Assembly (NCBI GenBank): GCA_956465555.1
Contig: OY101128.1
Location: 558,001 to 622,000, forward strand
DNA from: Nitzschia sp. pyKryTriq1
Taxonomy: Eukaryota > Bacillariophyta > Bacillariophyceae > Bacillariales > Bacillariaceae
Length of the DNA: 64,000 nt
Reading direction: 5' to 3'
Shown: piece by piece, positions 15,182 to 54,161 of the stretch
How positions within the stretch are numbered: position 1 is the stretch's first letter
Layout of the letters: each line of letters starts with the position of its first letter
The notes under the pieces: model-generated
What the model was told of the DNA's origin: nothing
Seen by the model: only the letters and a program-made list of their open reading frames with translations
Database searches by the model: none
Made by a program: the position numbers and the translations under genes

Positions 15182-17219
15182 TCATCTCCTCATTCTCTTG
15201 GAGCGTCGATCCCCGCCCTCGTTCTCTGCAGATGGTATGGCTAACTCCATTTCTCCTATAGACACTCTTGGCTTTTTTAGAGTCTGCAGAAGCAAACTAC
15301 CCTTGCCCAACCGTTTGGAGCGAACCTGACAAAACCAGTCCGGCAGCAGCCTGCTCTCTTCCTCCACATCCATATCCATATTGCCAGCAGTGGCCTTGTC
15401 TAGAATCTCCAATCGCATACTTTGGTCAAGGAGTTGAAATAGCCTCCCGATACCATATTTGTGTGACGGTGTTAAAATTTCCACAAATTGTTTCCCACTT
15501 GAAGAAGACGACTCTTCCCAGTATAACAAGGAATCGAAAAAGCCCAACAACCAAGTCCCCGCACAGAGCGCGTTTTCCGGCTTGGTCCATCGTCTTGGTT
15601 CCTCTTTCACTCCATTTATCTTGTATTTTGGAGTGAGAATATCTTGGGCAATCAGCATGGCTGCCGCACTCATATGTTGGTTGAGTTGCAACGAGTCAAT
15701 CCCTTCGTACCGGTACTTGCTTGCCACTCGTGCGGCATCTGCATAGTGTTTCATAGCATGTACGAGCCGATATTCATGCTCTGGTCCCTCATTGCCAGCA
15801 TCCTTGTGATAATGTCCTGCATCTGAGAAGAAACGTACAGTAGAGTATGAGAAGATACTGTACAATCTCCCAACCATCGGCGCCGATTATGGTACAGAAA
15901 GTTCCGCCAACGCCAAGAGACTTACAGAAGTAGGGGTACACCTGGGCTTCGTTGTACAATACCTGGTTGATGATTATGGCGTCGTAGAAAAGCTTTTCGT
16001 TTTGCAGAATGGGTTCGGGGATGTTGTCTACTTTCACCCATTCTTCCGATCGGGGAGATCCTCGATGCTCCTCGCAATCTCCGAGTTCCAAGAGCCCAAA
16101 AGGGAATTTTGACATGTGACCATGATCATACAGAATCCACAGTAGATCCCGTTTGAAATCGTAGAGCTGTCCACTTGCTAAAGACTTTTTCTGTGGTTGT
16201 TGCTTTTCGATCGTGCAGTTGATATTTCCAACCACAGCGACCAATGTCATGGGTATCGAATCGCAAACCACCGCATTCGAGGCCATGTACAACCAGGAAG
16301 TCTGTGGTGTCAGGGTGGCATCTTTGGGGAACGTTTCAGCAATTTCGCGTCCCCGCTTGGCTTGGGCAGCCTTAGTCGTCCCTGGGACAGCCACTTCGCA
16401 AGTTCCGATGAGGAGGGGACCACCACCTGAGTTGCCTGATGATGTTCCGAGGACGTGTCGTTCGTAAGCGTGATCTTCCGACAATGTCAACTGGCTCGAA
16501 TTCAAACCTCGGATATGGCATCCCGCGATGGTTGTTAACGCGGCACCAAAGCAATCCAAACTTTTTCGATCGATCCGACCACGTAGCCAAACATACACCG
16601 AATTGGCATGGATTTCATCTCGAGTGTTTGGTTTGTTGAGGGTTTGAGCCCAAATCCCGTTGGCGACAGCTTGGACGGTTTCTCTATGCGTCGGTGATAA
16701 CATGCCAACTGAGACCGATCGGATTCTTGGTATGAATTCCTCTCGAATCAAACGTTGGAGAGCCCCGAAAGGCAAAGGAAATATATGATAACGTTGTTGC
16801 TTGTGCGTCGCCAATGCTTCGGCGTAGCCGGCCACACAGCTCCATAGGGCGAGAACTTCTCCGCTATTAGTTCGATTGGATGGCGAGATGTCCGAAACAA
16901 AGGCCGCCTTGAAATGACCCATTGTTTCTATGATCACATCTCCCTGTTGGTGATTGAGTCCCTGCCAATGGGGCGACAGGGTCGGCGGCAGCAACGGTGG
17001 TGCATCCTTCTCATCGTCAAATCCGACTCTCAACATGACTTTTTTGGGGAGCTGCCATCTACATTGGTTCATGGTCGATGCAAGATACAAGATACAAGAT
17101 ACAACAACATCAGCATCATCTTCTATCGTAGCCTCTATCTCATTCCTCTGCCGTACCGCCGGTCTCTCAGTCGCCGGGAAAAGCGCGAAAAGAAATCGAA
17201 TCGATCGTGTCGAACACAC
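15182..17219 (-). CDS. MEN1: Menin homologue (2 exons)
   Basis: Exons are 17219-15926 and 15822-15182, with a 103-nt GTAAGT...CAG intron. The product is 644 residues (human menin is about 610). Landmarks align in order with menin as I recall it: SEDHAY at 247-252 (human SEDHAW), SWLYMASNAVVCD near 308 (human SWLYLKGSYMRCD), LLWILYDHGHM at 359-369 (human LLWLLYDLGHL), and VYPYFYAGHYH across the splice (human IYPYMYLAGYH). LLGFFDSLLYWEE near 520 corresponds to human LLRFYDGICKWEE. The tail ends in a basic RRSKRMRR, plausibly a nuclear signal. In animals menin is a nuclear scaffold that binds MLL/KMT2 and JunD; here I infer a chromatin scaffold. A start further upstream or at Met50 cannot be excluded. 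Confidence 0.88.
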
Positions 17220-17745
17220 TGCCCTTATTTTTTATTGTGTAGGAGTTAGTAGATAGTTGAGAGTTGAATGACCAATGCGACTAAAGTGACATAGTCGATG
17301 CTTTCAGACGCTCACAAAATCAGAGCCTCGCCCCCGAAAAATCCGAAATTTCTTGGACCCTCCGTCAACTCATCAATCAATCAATCACACATACATTCAT
17401 CATGCATGGCGGATTGTTGTTGCTATGTCAGAATTTGCTGCAAGGAGCGGTGCGTGCGATTTTCAAATGTACTCGTATTATAGCAATGAAACTACGAGAT
17501 TTCATACTACTGTATATATCTGTCTATTCCATCAATTCGCACGAGCAGGGATGGCCGCAAAATGGAGTCGTCGTCGTCGCCTTCGCCAACTCCACAAAAA
17601 ACCGTCGGAGAAAGCTGATGACAGCGATAGCGATGTATTCTCTTTCTTTGCCAGGACCAAAAGTGTTATTTGATGTCACAAACTTCGAAAAGTGTTTCCA
17701 TTTCATCATTTGGCAAGAAATAACAGAAACCTCTCCTGCTCCAGC
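17220..17745. other. Intergenic region between divergent menin and zinc-protein genes
   Basis: Short overlapping frames only. A fragment around 17550-17670 (basic, then DDSDSD) looks protein-like and could be an unrecognised 5' exon of the downstream zinc-protein gene, but I cannot define splice sites. Confidence 0.35.
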
Positions 17746-31201: not shown

Positions 31202-34005
31202 ATGAAGACCGAATATCGCTGCTTCTTGCTCTCTATCCTCGCCGTTTCAATGGCGACAGCACAAACGCTGACGGACCTAACGAACAACATGGGCCAGCGT
31301 GCCTACGGACTCTGTCAAGGAGATTGCGACAGGGATTCAGACTGCGATTTCGGATTGAACTGCTTCCAGCGCAGTGGAACTAAGACGGTGCCTGGCTGCG
31401 CCGGTTCAGGAACCAGTGGTACTGACTATTGCTACATCCCACCTTCAGGAAGTCTCGTCATCACCGGGGACGAAGAGGAACCAGTGGGTGCCTTCCCTCT
31501 TCAAGCATGCCAGGGCGACTGCGATTTCGACAGTGACTGCCAAGGTCTTCTCATGTGCTTCGAAAGAACCGGAACGGAAGCCGTACCTGGATGCACTGGC
31601 TCTGGTCAGAGCGGTAACGACTACTGTTATGATGCTGGTGCGACTGTGACCACCCTCCAACTGATGGGCGACAATGGCAGCCCTGCGGCTCAGTTTCCTC
31701 TGGGAAAGTGTCATGGTGACTGTGACTCGGATAGTGATTGTGCGGGTTCTCTTATTTGCTTCCAGCGCGGGGCTCTTGAACCTGTTCCAGGGTGCGATGG
31801 AGTAGGACGCAGTGGCTCAGATTATTGGTAAGTCCAGTTTCGCAAGCTCGATTCAGTTTGGAGAAATTGATTCACCTTCTCATCTTTCATCACGCTTTCT
31901 TTGTGCAGCTACGACCCTGCCCCTCCCGTCTCATCGCCGACAAACGCTCCTGTTACTCCAGCCCCAGTTCCATCGCCGACCAACGCGCCTGTTACTCCAG
32001 CCCCAGTTCCATCGCCGACCAACGCTCCTGTTACTCCAGCCCCAGTTCCATCGCCGACCAACGCTCCTGTTACTCCTGCACCTGTCCCGTCGCCCACTAA
32101 TGCACCTGTCACTCCTGCCCCAGTCCCAACGCCAATGCTTTCCCTTCAAGACCTAGGTAACAATGGCGCTCCAGCAGGTGTCTTTCCACTTATCGAATGT
32201 GCAGGAGACTGCGACAATGACGGTGAATGCGCCAGTGATCTCAAGTGCTTCCAGCGAAGTGGATTGCAGCCTGTTCCAGGATGCAATGGATCGGGATCGT
32301 CTGGTACGGACTATTGCTACAGCCATTACACCGGATACGGCACCCTTACCATCGCTGGCGATAACGGTAGCCCGGCGTCGGCCTTCCCGCTCCAAGTTTG
32401 TCAAGGCGACTGTGATTCAGACGACGATTGTGGCCCGGGCTTGTATTGCTACCAGCGAGGGTCCGACTCCACCTTTGTCCCCGGTTGCGTGGGATCGCCG
32501 GACGGTGCCAAAGATTACTGCATCAACCCCAACAAAATCACCGGCCCCACTCCCGCGCCAGTGTCCGCACCAACATTCGCTCCTGTCGACCCCACTCCAA
32601 CACCGCCCGGCGTCACCTACCGACCCGGTGACAAGACCGTATTGATGGAGGGACTCTCCCTCTCGACAGGTCTCACAGCAAGAAAGATTGCCACCAAGAA
32701 TCTCCCGGTCCAGTACGACATTGGCGGTCAGTCAACTGACGTCTTCCACACCGCCCCCGATGGTGCTGCTATCTTCGAGGATAAAGTTACTGGCGAGTAT
32801 GTCTATGCTTCCAACTCCGAAAGCTCGACGGATGGAGGCGTGGGCTCCATCCGATTCAATGCCCAAGGTCAAGTCATTGGGTATCAGCGACTCAAGTTCC
32901 GCGATCCTGTCACGGGCGTTGCCAGCACAACCAAGACGTCACGCAACTGCGGTGTCGGTAAGACGTATTGGAACACTCTCATGACATGCGAAGAGAAGTC
33001 CGATGGAGGTGTGTGGGAGGTGGATCCATGGGGTAACGAGCCAGGTCGAAAGACACAAATGGTCGCGCAGGGTAGAGCCTATGAGAGCGCTGCCTATGAC
33101 AACCGTAATGTGAACAATCCTGTCTTTTACATCACCACCGACGAGACTACCGGCCCCTTGGTGCAGTACACTCCCGCTCCATCCGTGGTAGCTACGGCCA
33201 TCACCACTGGTAACTATTCTCAGGTGCTTCACTCCGCTGGTGGAACGTACAGATACTTCAAAATCGATTCCATCACCCAGAACTCCGACGGTACAGCGAC
33301 CGGTTCCTATTCATGGACAACTGATGTGCAACAAGGAAACGACTCGGCCGGGACCTATCACAAGAACGGCGAGGGTATCGACATTCGGGGTAACCAGCTC
33401 TACTACACCACGAAGACAGACAAACTGCTCTGGATCATCGATCTGGATAGTAACAACTGTGAGTTCACCAAGCCATGCCGTGGCACATCCTCATGCAAAC
33501 TAATGTCACTTTCACGTTCCGATTTCTCACCGAGCCTGCTCTCCTTTTTTCTTGTATCGTCTTTTTCAACCCAACAGTCTCTCGCTCTAGCACTGTTAGT
33601 GGAGCATTTGATTCTCAGCCCGACCAGGTTGCCCGTGTCCTTGACTTCGGCAATGGGTCCACCGACGGTATCTTGTACTTCTGTGAGGATGGCGGAGACG
33701 AATGCGGCGTCCACGGCCGCGATGCTCAAGGTCGCTTCTTCACCATCCTTGAGGACGGCACCGGAGCCTTTTCGGGGGAGACAACCGGTCTTGCCTTCTC
33801 TCCAAACGGTATGTTTATGTATGTTTCGTTCCAGAGTCCTGGGATCATATTCGAGATCAGTCGAACGGATGGATTCCCGTTCTATGGGGCGACCTTGGAT
33901 ATCAAGTACCATGCCGACGGAGGCCCCAATGCCTTCCGAGACCGTATGCTGTTTGAAGACAACGCCAAGACATGCGAAACCAACACCGAACTCTGTTCGC
34001 ATTAG
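31202..34005 (+). CDS. Secreted six-Cys-module + PhoX/DUF839 protein, copy A (3 exons)
   Basis: Exons are 31202-31827, 31909-33458 and 33578-34005 (introns of 81 and 119 nt). The product is 867 residues. The signal peptide ends SMATAQ. Three modules of about 65 residues follow, each with GDCDxDSDC, a CFQR-like segment and VPGC...DYCY, six cysteines in all. Then comes a Pro-rich linker of repeated APVPSPTNAPVTP units, two more modules, and from about residue 446 a PhoX-like domain. DUF839 hallmarks are NCGVGKTYWNTLMTCEE, VWEVDPWG, YFCEDGGDE and GLAFSPNGMFMYVSFQSPG. Bacterial PhoX is a Ca/Fe alkaline phosphatase. An extracellular phosphatase or a carbohydrate/wall-associated protein is inferred; metal ligands were not verified. 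Its 3' part is almost identical to copy B. Confidence 0.9.
31810..33986 (+). repeat. 2,177-bp near-identical repeat, copy A
   Basis: Matches 37321-39497 at a constant offset of 5,511 bp. The only difference I found is an intronic T (33546) versus C (39057). It starts near the end of exon 1 and stops 19 bp before the stop codon's last base, so it covers exon ends, both introns and all of exon 2. Flanks on both sides are clearly more diverged. Confidence 0.93.
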
Positions 34006-35958
34006 AAAAAACGTTGAGGTACCATGTTAGCTACTTGTCAAATGATAATAGAATAATTTGCAGAATGAATCGTCTCGTTGTTTCCTCTACTAGATTAGTG
34101 CGTGCATTGTACTGTACGATGAGTCTATTATAACTTTGAACTTGTTCTTCGAAGCCTTCCTTCATTTTTTTCTACTGCCGGGATGACTTATCAATATTGA
34201 TGCTAATGGGCAGCGGCATAATATGAGTACGCGATCTCGTATTTGCTTGATGTCATTATCTATGTTTAGCAAGACGGAGAATGATGAGTCGCTTAGCTTC
34301 TCGCTCTGTCACTAGTAGTAGACAAACTACCGGTACTCTAGAGTACTTGTAGTCTGCTAGCATCAGTAGTCTGCGGTACCAGGTACGATACCAGGTACTG
34401 GTTTTCCGCTGTGTGTTGTGATCTTGTGAGAAGTTTAAAATATCCTTTTTTGTTACGTACAGTACGTAGTAGATTACACCCAAAAGTCCAAACGACGCTC
34501 TGCTCTGAGCCTTGTTTGAACCCTACCGGTACTGAAAGTCATCGTAGGACCGCAATTATTAGCGTGGTGGCGATGACAGCAGCAGGACCAATGCTGTTCT
34601 TCCATCCCGCCGGTCTTGCGTGTACCCTTATGGTCTTACTACTACTGTGAATGTAGTCGAAAAATAATCTACCATAAAATCTACTAACAATAACACGGGG
34701 TTCTCATCTCCGAAATCGTACAAGTCGGTGCGCTCTCACCCCTTTTGGACGCGAAATGCGTCAAGTCGGTTGGAGAGCCGAAAGCACACGGTGGGCACGC
34801 GGTGTCAACAAGTCGCGAAACACAACAGTAGCTAGTATTATGATGCATCTCGTAGCAGTACTTGTACAACTACTTGTACTTGTACTCGTCTCTACTCTAG
34901 CTAGAGCTACTAGCTAGTAGTAGAGTAGAGAGCTGAGGTAATTTAGTAACTACTGTCACTCTAGTAGTACTAAGTACTATATTGCCAATAAGTCCCATCA
35001 ATCCTTGCGATCCCATCGCGACCATCAGCATCGAACACCATTGAAGCAAGATAGTGTAGTGCAGCCAAAGGCGAGCCAATAAAAAGGACGAGAAAGGCAC
35101 TGCATGCCAGAGAAGCAGACAGACAGAAGCCGCAAGGCGTCCTGCGCAAATGCACGAATAGCGTTTACACATGCCTCGCTCCTCCGCTCTAAATACAACT
35201 TTTAAATCATGACACCGCAAGGTGATTGGGCCTCTTTGGGTCGTTGTGAAGGAAGGATCGCTCAGTTTTTTCGTGGCTGTTCTCGGGGGCTTCCGAACTG
35301 AAGTTGACAAACAACTACTAAATAATTTACCAAGGCAGGTACCAGTACCGATTAGTGTGGAATGCTTCGAGGCGTGATGGGGTCGTAGTAGAAATTTTTT
35401 GACTAGTCACGGTTCCGAAAGTCGCAAAGTAGAGACAGACCAACGTTTTAGCAAGACGGAGGAGAATGATGAGTCCTCGCTTAGCTTCTCGCTCGGGTCA
35501 CTATATAAATAACACCAGTATTCTAGGGTACTGGTATTCCGCGTTGTGTTGTGATCTTGTGATCGGTTAAAAATACGTATCCTTGTTCTTTTTTTTTAAA
35601 CGCAAGCACCCAAAAGGCCCAACGCAACCGAAGGTCTTGGTGTTTGGAACAACCCGAAGCCAAAACCTATAAATCTTGCACAATGATACGCGTGATGAGC
35701 TCCTTCGAAGTCGACGGAAGGTCCTTTTATATGCCCTTCAAACTTGGGTTGTCTTGGAGGGTGCTTTATATATACAAAAATTTCCAATAAATATTCCCTG
35801 CATTGGTGAGGAACAGGTCGAAAGGCCAAAGGTGTGTTCGTGAAGCGATCCAATTTCGATTGATGGCGGTCGTGGCTTGATTTATTGTAGCACTTTTTTC
35901 TCGTGGTTGCTCTCATCTCACAAATTTCAAAGCCTGCATTAATACAAGCAAAGTAAAA
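34006..35958. other. Intergenic region with nested duplications
   Basis: 1.95 kb between copies A and B. It contains a fragment of the oligopeptidase 5' end, copies of the sequence upstream of gene A, and an internal repeat: 34266-34500 resembles 35452-35625 (both carry AGCAAGACGGAG, CTTAGCTTCTCGCTC, GTTGTGATCTTGTGA and an ACCCAAAAG segment in the same order). TACCGGTA words lie at 34328 and 34524. Confidence 0.6.
34541..34649 (-). pseudogene. Duplicated 5' fragment of the S9A peptidase gene
   Basis: About 109 bp that closely match 29579-29690, the N-terminal coding end of the oligopeptidase gene (same orientation, about 95% similar by eye). Similarity stops within the ACT repeat. The fragment has no start or continuation. 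It marks one breakpoint of the tandem duplication that produced the A/B pair. Confidence 0.8.
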
Positions 35959-38900
35959 ATGATGAAAATTGATTATCGTTGCTTCTTGCTCTATGCCCTC
36001 GCCGTTTCAATGGCGACAGCTCAAACGCTGACGGACCTAACGAACAACATGGGCCAGCGTGCCTACGGACTCTGTCAAGGAGATTGCGACAGGGATTCAG
36101 ACTGCGATTTCGGATTGAACTGCTTCCAGCGCAGTGGAACTAAGACGGTGCCTGGCTGCGCCGGTTCAGGAACCAAGGGTACTGACTATTGCTACATCCC
36201 ACCTTCAGGAAGTCTCGTCATCGCCGGCGACGAAGAGGAACCAGTTGGTGCCTTCCCTCTTCAAGCATGCCAGGGCGACTGCGATTTCGACAGTGACTGC
36301 CAAGGTCTTCTCATGTGCTCCCAACGATCGGGGACTGAAGCCGTACCTGGATGCACCGGCTCTGGTCAGAGCGGTAAAGACTACTGCTATGACGCTGGTG
36401 CCACTGTGACCACCCTCCAACTGATGGGCAACAATGGCAGCCCTGCGGCTCAGTTCCCTCTGGGAAAGTGTCACGGTGACTGTGACTCGGACAGTGATTG
36501 TGCTGGTGAGATGCTTTGCTTCCAGCGCGGGGCTCTTGAACCTGTTCCAGGGTGTGATGGGGAAGGAAGCAGTGGTTGGGACTACTGGTAGGTTGATGTT
36601 CCTGATTGTCTTTGACCAATCGTTCACTCCTCTGACCATTCATCGTATTGTGATGTCTTTGTATCTAGTTACCTCCCAAGCTTGCCATTGACTGACCTTA
36701 CCAATAATCTTGGTCAACGTGCCTACGCTAGATGCCAGGGAGACTGTGACAGCGATTCTGATTGTGCGGTAAGTACCACATAGAAGGAAAATGTTGCGCA
36801 ACGATTTTCAGTGGCAATATGTTTGCTCACTGTTCCTTCCATCGTGCCTGTTGAGAAAGTTTGGCCTTGGTTGCTTTCAACGCAGCGGAACTGAAACCGT
36901 TCCTGACTGTGACGGTGCGGGAAGCAGTGGAACGGACTATTGCTACCTTCCACCTGCAGGAAGTCTTATCATCGCCGGCGACGAAGAGGAACCAGTGGGT
37001 GCCTTCCCTCTTCAAGCATGCCAGGGCGACTGCGATTTCGACAGTGACTGCCAAGGTCTTCTCATGTGCTCCCAACGATCGGGGACTGAAGCCGTACCTG
37101 GATGCACTGGCTCTGGTCAGAGCGGTAAGGACTACTGCTATGACGCTGGTGCCACTGTGACCACCCTCCAACTGATGGGCGACAATGGCAGCCCTGCGGC
37201 TCAGTTTCCTCTGGGAAAGTGTCATGGTGACTGTGACTCGGACAGTGATTGTGCGGGTTCTCTTATTTGCTTCCAGCGCGGGGCTCTTGAACCTGTTCCA
37301 GGGTGTGATGGGGAAGGAAGCAGTGGCTCAGATTATTGGTAAGTCCAGTTTCGCAAGCTCGATTCAGTTTGGAGAAATTGATTCACCTTCTCATCTTTCA
37401 TCACGCTTTCTTTGTGCAGCTACGACCCTGCCCCTCCCGTCTCATCGCCGACAAACGCTCCTGTTACTCCAGCCCCAGTTCCATCGCCGACCAACGCGCC
37501 TGTTACTCCAGCCCCAGTTCCATCGCCGACCAACGCTCCTGTTACTCCAGCCCCAGTTCCATCGCCGACCAACGCTCCTGTTACTCCTGCACCTGTCCCG
37601 TCGCCCACTAATGCACCTGTCACTCCTGCCCCAGTCCCAACGCCAATGCTTTCCCTTCAAGACCTAGGTAACAATGGCGCTCCAGCAGGTGTCTTTCCAC
37701 TTATCGAATGTGCAGGAGACTGCGACAATGACGGTGAATGCGCCAGTGATCTCAAGTGCTTCCAGCGAAGTGGATTGCAGCCTGTTCCAGGATGCAATGG
37801 ATCGGGATCGTCTGGTACGGACTATTGCTACAGCCATTACACCGGATACGGCACCCTTACCATCGCTGGCGATAACGGTAGCCCGGCGTCGGCCTTCCCG
37901 CTCCAAGTTTGTCAAGGCGACTGTGATTCAGACGACGATTGTGGCCCGGGCTTGTATTGCTACCAGCGAGGGTCCGACTCCACCTTTGTCCCCGGTTGCG
38001 TGGGATCGCCGGACGGTGCCAAAGATTACTGCATCAACCCCAACAAAATCACCGGCCCCACTCCCGCGCCAGTGTCCGCACCAACATTCGCTCCTGTCGA
38101 CCCCACTCCAACACCGCCCGGCGTCACCTACCGACCCGGTGACAAGACCGTATTGATGGAGGGACTCTCCCTCTCGACAGGTCTCACAGCAAGAAAGATT
38201 GCCACCAAGAATCTCCCGGTCCAGTACGACATTGGCGGTCAGTCAACTGACGTCTTCCACACCGCCCCCGATGGTGCTGCTATCTTCGAGGATAAAGTTA
38301 CTGGCGAGTATGTCTATGCTTCCAACTCCGAAAGCTCGACGGATGGAGGCGTGGGCTCCATCCGATTCAATGCCCAAGGTCAAGTCATTGGGTATCAGCG
38401 ACTCAAGTTCCGCGATCCTGTCACGGGCGTTGCCAGCACAACCAAGACGTCACGCAACTGCGGTGTCGGTAAGACGTATTGGAACACTCTCATGACATGC
38501 GAAGAGAAGTCCGATGGAGGTGTGTGGGAGGTGGATCCATGGGGTAACGAGCCAGGTCGAAAGACACAAATGGTCGCGCAGGGTAGAGCCTATGAGAGCG
38601 CTGCCTATGACAACCGTAATGTGAACAATCCTGTCTTTTACATCACCACCGACGAGACTACCGGCCCCTTGGTGCAGTACACTCCCGCTCCATCCGTGGT
38701 AGCTACGGCCATCACCACTGGTAACTATTCTCAGGTGCTTCACTCCGCTGGTGGAACGTACAGATACTTCAAAATCGATTCCATCACCCAGAACTCCGAC
38801 GGTACAGCGACCGGTTCCTATTCATGGACAACTGATGTGCAACAAGGAAACGACTCGGCCGGGACCTATCACAAGAACGGCGAGGGTATCGACATTCGGG

Positions 38901-39516
38901 GTAACCAGCTCTACTACACCACGAAGACAGACAAACTGCTCTGGATCATCGATCTGGATAGTAACAACTGTGAGTTCACCAAGCCATGCCGTGGCACATC
39001 CTCATGCAAACTAATGTCACTTTCACGTTCCGATTTCTCACCGAGCCTGCTCTCCTCTTTTCTTGTATCGTCTTTTTCAACCCAACAGTCTCTCGCTCTA
39101 GCACTGTTAGTGGAGCATTTGATTCTCAGCCCGACCAGGTTGCCCGTGTCCTTGACTTCGGCAATGGGTCCACCGACGGTATCTTGTACTTCTGTGAGGA
39201 TGGCGGAGACGAATGCGGCGTCCACGGCCGCGATGCTCAAGGTCGCTTCTTCACCATCCTTGAGGACGGCACCGGAGCCTTTTCGGGGGAGACAACCGGT
39301 CTTGCCTTCTCTCCAAACGGTATGTTTATGTATGTTTCGTTCCAGAGTCCTGGGATCATATTCGAGATCAGTCGAACGGATGGATTCCCGTTCTATGGGG
39401 CGACCTTGGATATCAAGTACCATGCCGACGGAGGCCCCAATGCCTTCCGAGACCGTATGCTGTTTGAAGACAACGCCAAGACATGCGAAACCAACACTGA
39501 AATGTGTGTGCAATAG
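35959..39516 (+). CDS. Secreted six-Cys-module + PhoX/DUF839 protein, copy B (5 exons)
   Basis: Exons are 35959-36587, 36669-36768, 36860-37338, 37420-38969 and 39089-39516. The product is 1,061 residues. It has the same plan as copy A: signal peptide ending SMATAQ, Cys modules, Pro-rich linker, two modules and a PhoX-like domain. It carries three extra modules, eight in total against five. Introns after modules 3 and 6 split the same codon, TG|T or TG|C, the Cys of DYCY, in phase 2, so the extra block (exons 2-3) is symmetric and can be added without changing frame. The smaller intron 36769-36859 is phase 0 within module 4. The N-terminal signal region differs from copy A in several residues, and the last four codons differ. 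Function as for copy A. Confidence 0.88.
37321..39497 (+). repeat. 2,177-bp near-identical repeat, copy B
   Basis: Partner of 31810-33986, with one intronic difference seen. The repeat ends abruptly at both sides. Confidence 0.93.
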
Positions 39517-39710
39517 ATTTAAATACAATATAGTAAAATGACGACGAAAAATCCGAATGATTTCTTGTTCCTATTTAGAACAGCCTTCATCGTTCCTACC
39601 AAGCAGGTCCGTAAACGGCGGAACAGAAGCAATATTCCTGCTGCGTTTCCCTAGAGGGACTCGCAAAATTTGTAGTGCATTGCTCCGGAGGAGTGTCAAG
39701 AAATAGCTTC

Positions 39711-52346: not shown

Positions 52347-53804
52347 TCACTGCACTACTGTAGACTGCTTCAGCGCCCCTGTCAGGGCCGCTTCTTGTAG
52401 TTCTTCCAAACTGTAGCGTTCCAGATGTAGAGCCGGAAGTAGATCATTCTCAGCAACAAAATCCCGTCCGTACATTGCCGAAACAATATGAACTCCGGAC
52501 TGGTGGAGCGTAGCAGGTCGGTTGACCATATCTCCGAGGACAATAGTTGGGACGAGTCCAAATGGAATATCTTCGGTAATGTAGCGACTGTTCGCGGTGT
52601 TGGGCCCATAAACATCATTTCCCGCCTTGTGGATTTCTTGGTTCATGTCTGCTATCGAAGACGTTATGGGGACATGAAAGGAAAGTGAAAAGTGCTCAAA
52701 TATCGTTTTGGTTTCCAGGTGAAGTGCTTCAGCAATGGCAAGTCGTTCTTTGTCGAGCGATTCGAGGAGAAGTCCAATCGTCGGCGTAATGTTTTCACTT
52801 TGATACCAAGCTTCTCCCTTTTCCATCCTACTAATGTTCCCGAGAGCAATTCCAAGATGATTTTGCGGATTCAGATTGGACAAGGATATGGCCAAAAGTC
52901 CTTCACGAGCGCGAAATGTTTCCACTTGTGGGAACAAGCATTGACATAACTCCAAGGAAGTTTGAGACTCGGAATGGGGAATAGTGCAGAGGTCCACCGA
53001 TTGGCGCACGGTGTTGACTCGGACACTTGTCCCCGATGGTCGCCGCGCCGTACAAACGGTTGTCCCCCAAGCAGTAATGGGGACCACTGCATTGTCGCCC
53101 AGGTAATCTCGCAAGAGTTGCGCCAAATAAAGAGCGCCAAACGACGAATGCGATGAAATAATAATGGGTTGTCCGTTTCGTACATGGGGTGCAATCGCGT
53201 CAAAGACTTGCTTGTGACCGTTGGCGGGCAACGCAATCATCAAGACATCATTTTGCTCTACCAATTCTTGGGCACTAGTGCAAATCCGAGGAGTCAGGAT
53301 CCACTCCCCGGTGGCACCTTCATGCGTGGATCCGCTTTTGTTTCGCTCTACAGAGAGTGCGGGATTTCTTCGTAGATCTTCGGTCCCAGCCCCACTGGGT
53401 GACCAAAGCATCGGATCGTGACCTTCCTCGGACAAAAGAGCTGCGGCTCCAAAGGCAATTGCTCCCGCACCGGCAATCCCAACCCGAAGTTTGCGTAGAG
53501 GAGCGGTCGTCACTAATTCTTCGGTCGATGATCCTCCAAGATGAGCAGAATGGCTGCCAAGGCGGACATGAGCAGCACTGGCCAGTGGGCGGCGACGATG
53601 ATGATGATGATGATGATGACTCTTTGATGCATAATTTTGCTGTTGCTGTGGCTGTGGCGCCTCGGGAGAACGTGGCACGAAATTTGGAGAAGATACGCTG
53701 TCTCGTAGAAGGAATGCGTGGGAGAGTAAAGTTCTCGAACAGATCACCAACACCCAGACAAACAAAAACGGCGACATTCGTTGCCGTCGCAGTAGAAAAT
53801 TCAT
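52347..53804 (-). CDS. Octopine/opine-dehydrogenase-family protein, plastid-targeted
   Basis: A 485-residue protein. The N-terminus has a hydrophobic signal (FLFVWVLVICSRTLL) ending SHA|FLLRD, a diatom plastid-type junction, then a Ser/His/Gln-rich transit-like region. From about residue 105 RVGIAGAGAIAFGAA is the Rossmann dinucleotide motif (G-x-G-A-x-A), followed by VLMIALPANGHKQV. The alpha-helical domain has NLNPQNHLGIALGN, with the catalytic-type His, and SRYITEDIPFGLVP, matching the octopine/nopaline dehydrogenase family. Opine dehydrogenases reductively condense an amino acid with a keto acid using NAD(P)H. A plastid location would be unusual, and the substrates are unknown. Confidence 0.88.
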   Translation of the reverse strand: MNFLLRRQRMSPFLFVWVLVICSRTLLSHAFLLRDSVSSPNFVPRSPEAPQPQQQQNYASKSHHHHHHHRRRPLASAAHVRLGSHSAHLGGSSTEELVTTAPLRKLRVGIAGAGAIAFGAAALLSEEGHDPMLWSPSGAGTEDLRRNPALSVERNKSGSTHEGATGEWILTPRICTSAQELVEQNDVLMIALPANGHKQVFDAIAPHVRNGQPIIISSHSSFGALYLAQLLRDYLGDNAVVPITAWGTTVCTARRPSGTSVRVNTVRQSVDLCTIPHSESQTSLELCQCLFPQVETFRAREGLLAISLSNLNPQNHLGIALGNISRMEKGEAWYQSENITPTIGLLLESLDKERLAIAEALHLETKTIFEHFSLSFHVPITSSIADMNQEIHKAGNDVYGPNTANSRYITEDIPFGLVPTIVLGDMVNRPATLHQSGVHIVSAMYGRDFVAENDLLPALHLERYSLEELQEAALTGALKQSTVVQ

Positions 53805-54161
53805 TTTGTTCTAGGTTTTGTTCTTGGGAAAACAGCAGTCGTAGGTTTCGTTCGTGTCCTGCAGCAGTCAGCCTGCAGTGCGTAGTTGAGTCCACCGTAA
53901 TTAAAGGTTACCACTTTCTGGGCACACCGCTGCGGCCGTTGTTGTTGTTGTTGTTGTTGTTGTTGTTGCTTTTTGTCCATTCTCGACTTTCCCTCTTGAC
54001 GGCACCGCACACCGCACCGTTGATGATGTTGGTTGATGTCGAAAAACGCGGGGGGAATTACCGCGGTATGTCGCTTCGTCGCCATCCTGCTTTCGCGCGC
54101 GATTTTGGGCGACTAACTGACGTCATACTCCGACCCATCCGATCGATCCCGAGCCACCGTG
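53805..54161. other. Intergenic region with a GTT tract
   Basis: 5' flank of the opine-type dehydrogenase gene. It contains a (GTT)n tract at about 53939-53970. No gene. Confidence 0.4.

Follow-up and report, generated by a model that had tools for sequence, protein, structure and literature searches.

A divergent menin homologue with an altered MLL pocket in a photosynthetic protist

The window analysed here, a stretch of 64,000 nucleotides (C14:558001–622000), belonged to a contig of 1,332,194 bases in a genome of 40.65 Mb assembled in 20 contigs, and contained on its minus strand a gene for a menin homologue composed of two exons. Positions below are those of the window unless a contig is named. 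Exon 1 (15926–17072, minus strand) encoded residues 1–382 and one base of codon 383, comprising the N-terminal part, the thumb region with the LDCFG and SEDHAY blocks, the first part of the palm with the LLWILYDHGH block, and a last block, YPYF. The intron (15823–15925, minus strand; 103 bp, phase 1) had a canonical GTAAGT donor and a TTCTCAG acceptor, and translation over the splice rebuilt a menin-like YPYFY block at the exon–exon join. Exon 2 (15182–15822, minus strand) encoded the remaining palm and the fingers (GHYHKDAG to WEESS), followed by a non-aligning C-terminus, which ended with the basic stretch RRSKRMRR just before the TGA stop codon at 15184–15182.

The spliced protein, counted from the first in-frame ATG, was composed of 595 residues. 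An earlier note on this DNA had given 644 residues and a start at 17219, but the in-frame open stretch above 17072 (17073–17231, minus strand), part of which had been used in that count, contained no methionine. Position 17219 was therefore not the start, 49 methionine-free codons had been counted, and the stretch is probably 5′ untranslated region. The proposal of a menin-like gene in two exons held, with both exons and canonical splice sites present and a Pfam score far above chance. All of the motif blocks quoted at that time were found in the protein, although the fourth, YPYFYAGHYH, was in inexact register with the human YPYMYLAGYH. The term full-length was appropriate to the core, as the menin alignments spanned residues 74–489 or 116–489 of the 595.

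The spliced protein matched the Pfam Menin family (PF05053) with an expectation value (E) of 1.4e-35 and a score of 123.3 bits, against a curated cut-off of 23.6, so that the profile check proposed earlier gave a significant result. The match spanned residues 128–489 of the protein and positions 107–408 of the 678 in the profile. Exon 1 alone scored 99.4 bits with this profile; exon 2 alone had no match in the Pfam library at E ≤ 1, and was assigned to menin through the splice and the alignment only. In a PDB search at E ≤ 0.01, all 23 distinct sequences matched by the query (residues 74–489 or less) were menins, with 21 named menin, one named ‘Multiple endocrine neoplasia I’, and one, 3re2, named ‘Predicted protein’, which we take to be the Nematostella menin. 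The best match was 3re2 (E = 1.4e-26), and the other 22 sequences ranged from 4.7e-19 to 4.1e-17. When 500 shuffled sequences and the reversed protein were used as controls, the 3re2 fragment scored 94.6 bits with the real protein and 4.2 with the best shuffle, and the human menin construct scored 69.9 and 7.4 bits, respectively. NCBIfam, a prokaryotic library, gave no match, as expected. The Menin profile matched one place in the genome and none of the 14 prokaryote controls. On the sequence evidence, the gene is a genuine menin homologue present in one copy, with homology over the core.

Human menin (MEN1; for example, 4gpq, 4og6, and 3u84) shared the SEDHA, SWLY, LLW-LYD-GH, YPY-Y, and WEE blocks with the algal protein; the two differed by insertions and by N- and C-termini outside the alignment. 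The LDCFG block, located upstream of SEDHA, was common to the alga and 3re2, while the human sequence is LDSSG. Residue S154 of human menin corresponded to Cys174 of the alga, where the Cys-His pair was Cys174/His201. The menin thumb is described as transglutaminase-like in the relevant passage of a published paper (PMC13256885). By hhalign, the cysteine in LDCFG and the histidine in SEDHA lined up with a transglutaminase-like Cys and His when three sequences were aligned with two, the latter being two of the three transglutaminase-like candidates that this genome yielded (L071 was dropped). This alignment was not significant (E = 0.058, probability ~1%), and Transglut_core was not matched by Pfam in the menin homologue at E ≤ 1. 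The transglutaminase link was rejected for lack of significance and stays a lead.

The gene was located among genes of an apparently photosynthetic host. The Pfam scan of 20 open reading frames (ORFs) of the window included a TPR protein, a glycosyltransferase, a kinase, a light-harvesting protein, and a P450, and the light-harvesting family had 72 matches in the genome, some of them pieces of one gene. For the light-harvesting protein L051, the PDB entry with the top-scoring chains was 9vfj (long LHCI chains), and the relatives of normal length were VCPI-1, a Pt17531-like protein, XLH12, and fucoxanthin proteins. The names VCPI-1 and fucoxanthin protein are presumably of heterokont type, and the light-harvesting set probably fits a red-plastid, heterokont alga. 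The description of the genome as diatom-type agreed with the many light-harvesting genes and the heterokont-type relatives of L051, which do not by themselves prove a diatom. The claim of a menin-family protein in a photosynthetic, non-animal eukaryote was supported by the PF05053 match together with the light-harvesting genes of the genome. No diatom, stramenopile, or other protist menin appeared among the matches listed in a search of titles and abstracts of open-licence papers. A 2011 review of stramenopile epigenetics gives MLL-like proteins for diatoms, and in the portion of its text that was available the sole match to ‘menin’ was within the word meningitidis (PMC3145265). The protein is an unexpected member of a known family, notable for its occurrence in a photosynthetic protist.

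The menin homologue had a guanine-cytosine content (GC) of 0.494, a GC at third codon positions (GC3) of 0.518, and a codon distance of 0.071, within the range of 16 mechanically chosen neighbouring ORFs (GC3 0.430–0.607, codon distance 0.048–0.156). A contaminant or pseudogene at this locus was considered extremely improbable. No point in support of it was found, and both exon frames were open, the splice sites were canonical, codon usage was neighbour-like, the contig was 1.33 Mb long, and a light-harvesting gene was located within the same window. Searched with exon 1, the viral contig collection yielded 2 pattern matches and the prokaryote one 33, none confirmed as a relative. This outcome was expected since both collections are without protist genomes, and they are uninformative on contamination here.

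When the algal menin was compared with the animal proteins, the identity was 107/354 (30%) with the human construct and 112/310 (36%) with 3re2, whereas the human construct and 3re2 shared 179/307 (58%) in the same alignment. On these figures a recent transfer from animals, like contamination, is unlikely, because a donor-derived copy should sit closer to the animal menins and because the codon usage was neighbour-like. An old horizontal transfer from a donor of the animal lineage, instead of descent from an early eukaryote, was judged improbable to a lesser degree than contamination. The distribution of menin could be patchy, as such a transfer would allow, but the divergence from both animal menins, the neighbour-like codon usage, the intron, and the long native contig all argue against a recent event. 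The suggestion that menin either predates animals or was transferred was thus narrowed, with recent animal transfer disfavoured by divergence and codon usage, which did not separate an old transfer from descent.

Animal menin binds the N-terminus of MLL1, and LEDGF joins the two in a ternary complex that is tethered to chromatin by the PWWP domain of LEDGF (PMC8022399). The 18 positions of the MLL-binding pocket and the roles of their residues were taken from the same paper. The alga was identical to human menin at 6/18 (33%) of these positions and Nematostella menin at 12/18. The residues shared by the alga and human menin were L177, S178, H181, A182, Y319, and Y323. Four replacements in the alga were aromatic or bulky (Y276F, M278F, M322F, and W341Y), two were common with 3re2, which also has F at 155 and V at 228 (S155F and M228V), and four were of other kinds (F238A, C241G, N282E, and C329K); positions 238, 241, and 329 differed also between human menin and 3re2. 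The acidic residues E359 and E363, which hold Arg12 of MLL1, were aligned with H432 and A436 of the alga, whereas both acids were kept in 3re2. Algal residues 426–442, ahead of a shared A-x-D, contained no acidic residue, so that another placing of the gaps is unlikely to rescue the pair. In this alignment, no special conservation of the pocket for MLL is visible.

The SET family had 87 matches in the genome at E ≤ 0.01, some being pieces of one gene or duplicated copies, and the proteins of the four top loci (L032, L033, L034, and L035) were inspected. Several SET, light-harvesting, and pattern matches on C1 (~4.28–4.70 Mb) had a counterpart on C3 (~3.14–3.56 Mb) that was shifted by ~1.14 Mb and scored the same or almost the same. 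This pairing suggests a duplicated block of ~0.4 Mb or an unmerged haplotype. A trithorax/KMT2-type gene (L045, L032; C1:1331492–1337227) encoded a PWWP domain, four PHD stretches, a bromodomain, HC5HC2H, FYRN (E = 9.8e-22), and FYRC (21.8 bits, barely over the cut-off of 21). Its SET domain, located in the following frame and assigned to the same gene by an assumed two-frame join, was nearest to yeast-type Set1 (1.3e-40) and KMT2A (3.8e-40). No other locus in the genome matched FYRC at E ≤ 1, and the protein was one of two FYRN matches over the cut-off (the other on C11) and the best of four PWWP matches, three of which were over the cut-off. A possible short upstream exon, read by eye, would start with MATIRWEMTAEDRSN and be followed by a GTAAGT site. 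A second protein on C5 (L034) contained PHD, a bromodomain, and a KMT2A-like SET domain; L033 appeared NSD-like, and L035 carried AWS and SET. Dpy-30 had one genome match over the cut-off. An N-SET search gave no match in the genome or in the controls and was uninformative.

The algal menin might read dimethylated lysine 79 of histone H3 (H3K79me2), a property of menin that was not found in the passages of PMC12904788. The DOT1 family had nine matches in the genome, four over the cut-off and all partial, which would represent at most a putative H3K79 methylase, as 6 of the 14 prokaryote controls were also matched, one of them above the cut-off.

The question of which Set1/MLL-type partner the algal menin binds was answered in part, as a KMT2/trithorax-type methyltransferase was present in the genome and binding in the animal mode was unsupported. 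The FP.R-type motif was not found in the L032, L033, and L034 proteins (L035 was outside the scan), so that the search for a KMT2/Set1 protein with a menin-binding motif gave KMT2-type proteins and, in the three scanned, no such motif. A DNA pattern of the RFPARP type had 17 sites in the genome and 9 for the reversed control. RFPARP was encoded at 7 of the 17 sites, and none of these 7 was preceded by an ATG within its open frame. The integrase-binding domain of LEDGF (PF11467) had no genome match at E ≤ 1 in a search that lacked a positive control from a eukaryote. Both this search and the motif scans followed frames regardless of introns, and their control genomes were prokaryotic.

These observations allow an animal-like role to be weighed, in which the palm pocket would bind the algal KMT2/trithorax-type protein through a diverged motif and guide methylation of lysine 4 of histone H3. 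The presence of that protein and of a second one with PHD, a bromodomain, and a KMT2A-like SET domain agreed with this role, as did the retention of the Phe9 and Pro13 seats (L177, A182, Y319, and Y323) and two loose F.AR matches within the C1 protein. However, E359 and E363 were replaced by His and Ala, the pocket matched at 6/18 positions, neither KMT2-type protein had an FP.R-type motif, no RFPARP-coding site had an in-frame upstream ATG, and the LEDGF domain was not found. The animal-like role was considered rather doubtful, and binding of MLL in the animal mode itself was unsupported by the pocket and motif results.

A more probable reading, held with moderate confidence from the sequence comparisons, is an old menin that would serve in the nucleus as a peptide-binding scaffold and would have no MLL/LEDGF mode of the animal kind. 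This scaffold would be non-enzymatic, with a palm cavity that accommodates a short peptide from a partner in chromatin or transcription. The cavity would retain the human seats for an aromatic residue and a proline, formed by the equivalents of L177, S178, H181, A182, Y319, and Y323. The ligand is probably a motif other than the animal MLL peptide, because the acidic pair for MLL Arg12 was lost. The menin–LEDGF bridge is probably absent in the alga and may be needless, because the algal KMT2-type protein has a PWWP domain in cis, the chromatin reader that animal MLL1 gains in trans by way of menin and LEDGF.

Several observations weigh against this scaffold. The algal pocket perhaps takes no peptide, since its identity to human menin was no better than the overall identity, and the Nematostella menin itself departs from human menin at 6/18 pocket positions. 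A looser pattern, F.AR, was matched twice in the C1 KMT2-type protein, internally and far from its start, and the N-terminus of that protein is a guess. The absence of LEDGF and of the motifs is weak, because spliced or diverged sequences could escape and the controls were prokaryotic. In addition, an AlphaFold2 model of exon 1 from the single sequence had a mean predicted local distance difference test (pLDDT) score of 30.3 and was unusable for the fold.

Two further features were located in the window. A segment of 2,646 bp occurred twice in direct orientation (31361–34006 and 36872–39517; 98.3% identity), and this duplication carried two ORFs of 719 residues with proline/threonine repeats, one of which was scanned and gave a sub-cut-off PhoX match. 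An octopine/nopaline-type dehydrogenase domain (52350–53810, minus strand; E = 4.2e-32) indicated an opine dehydrogenase-like enzyme.

The scaffold reading can be carried further, to a proposal that is itself unlikely on present evidence. Menin would be an old protein of eukaryotes that first served a purpose other than bridging MLL and LEDGF; the algal thumb would keep the Cys-His pair of its transglutaminase-like fold, the palm would take a non-MLL ligand, the trithorax-type protein would read chromatin with its own PWWP domain, and the ternary complex of animals would have arisen later, adding PWWP in trans by way of menin plus LEDGF. Apart from this proposal, the algal menin, with its altered MLL pocket, offers a natural experiment on the ancestral functions of menin and makes the origin of the menin–MLL–LEDGF complex testable in a single-celled organism.
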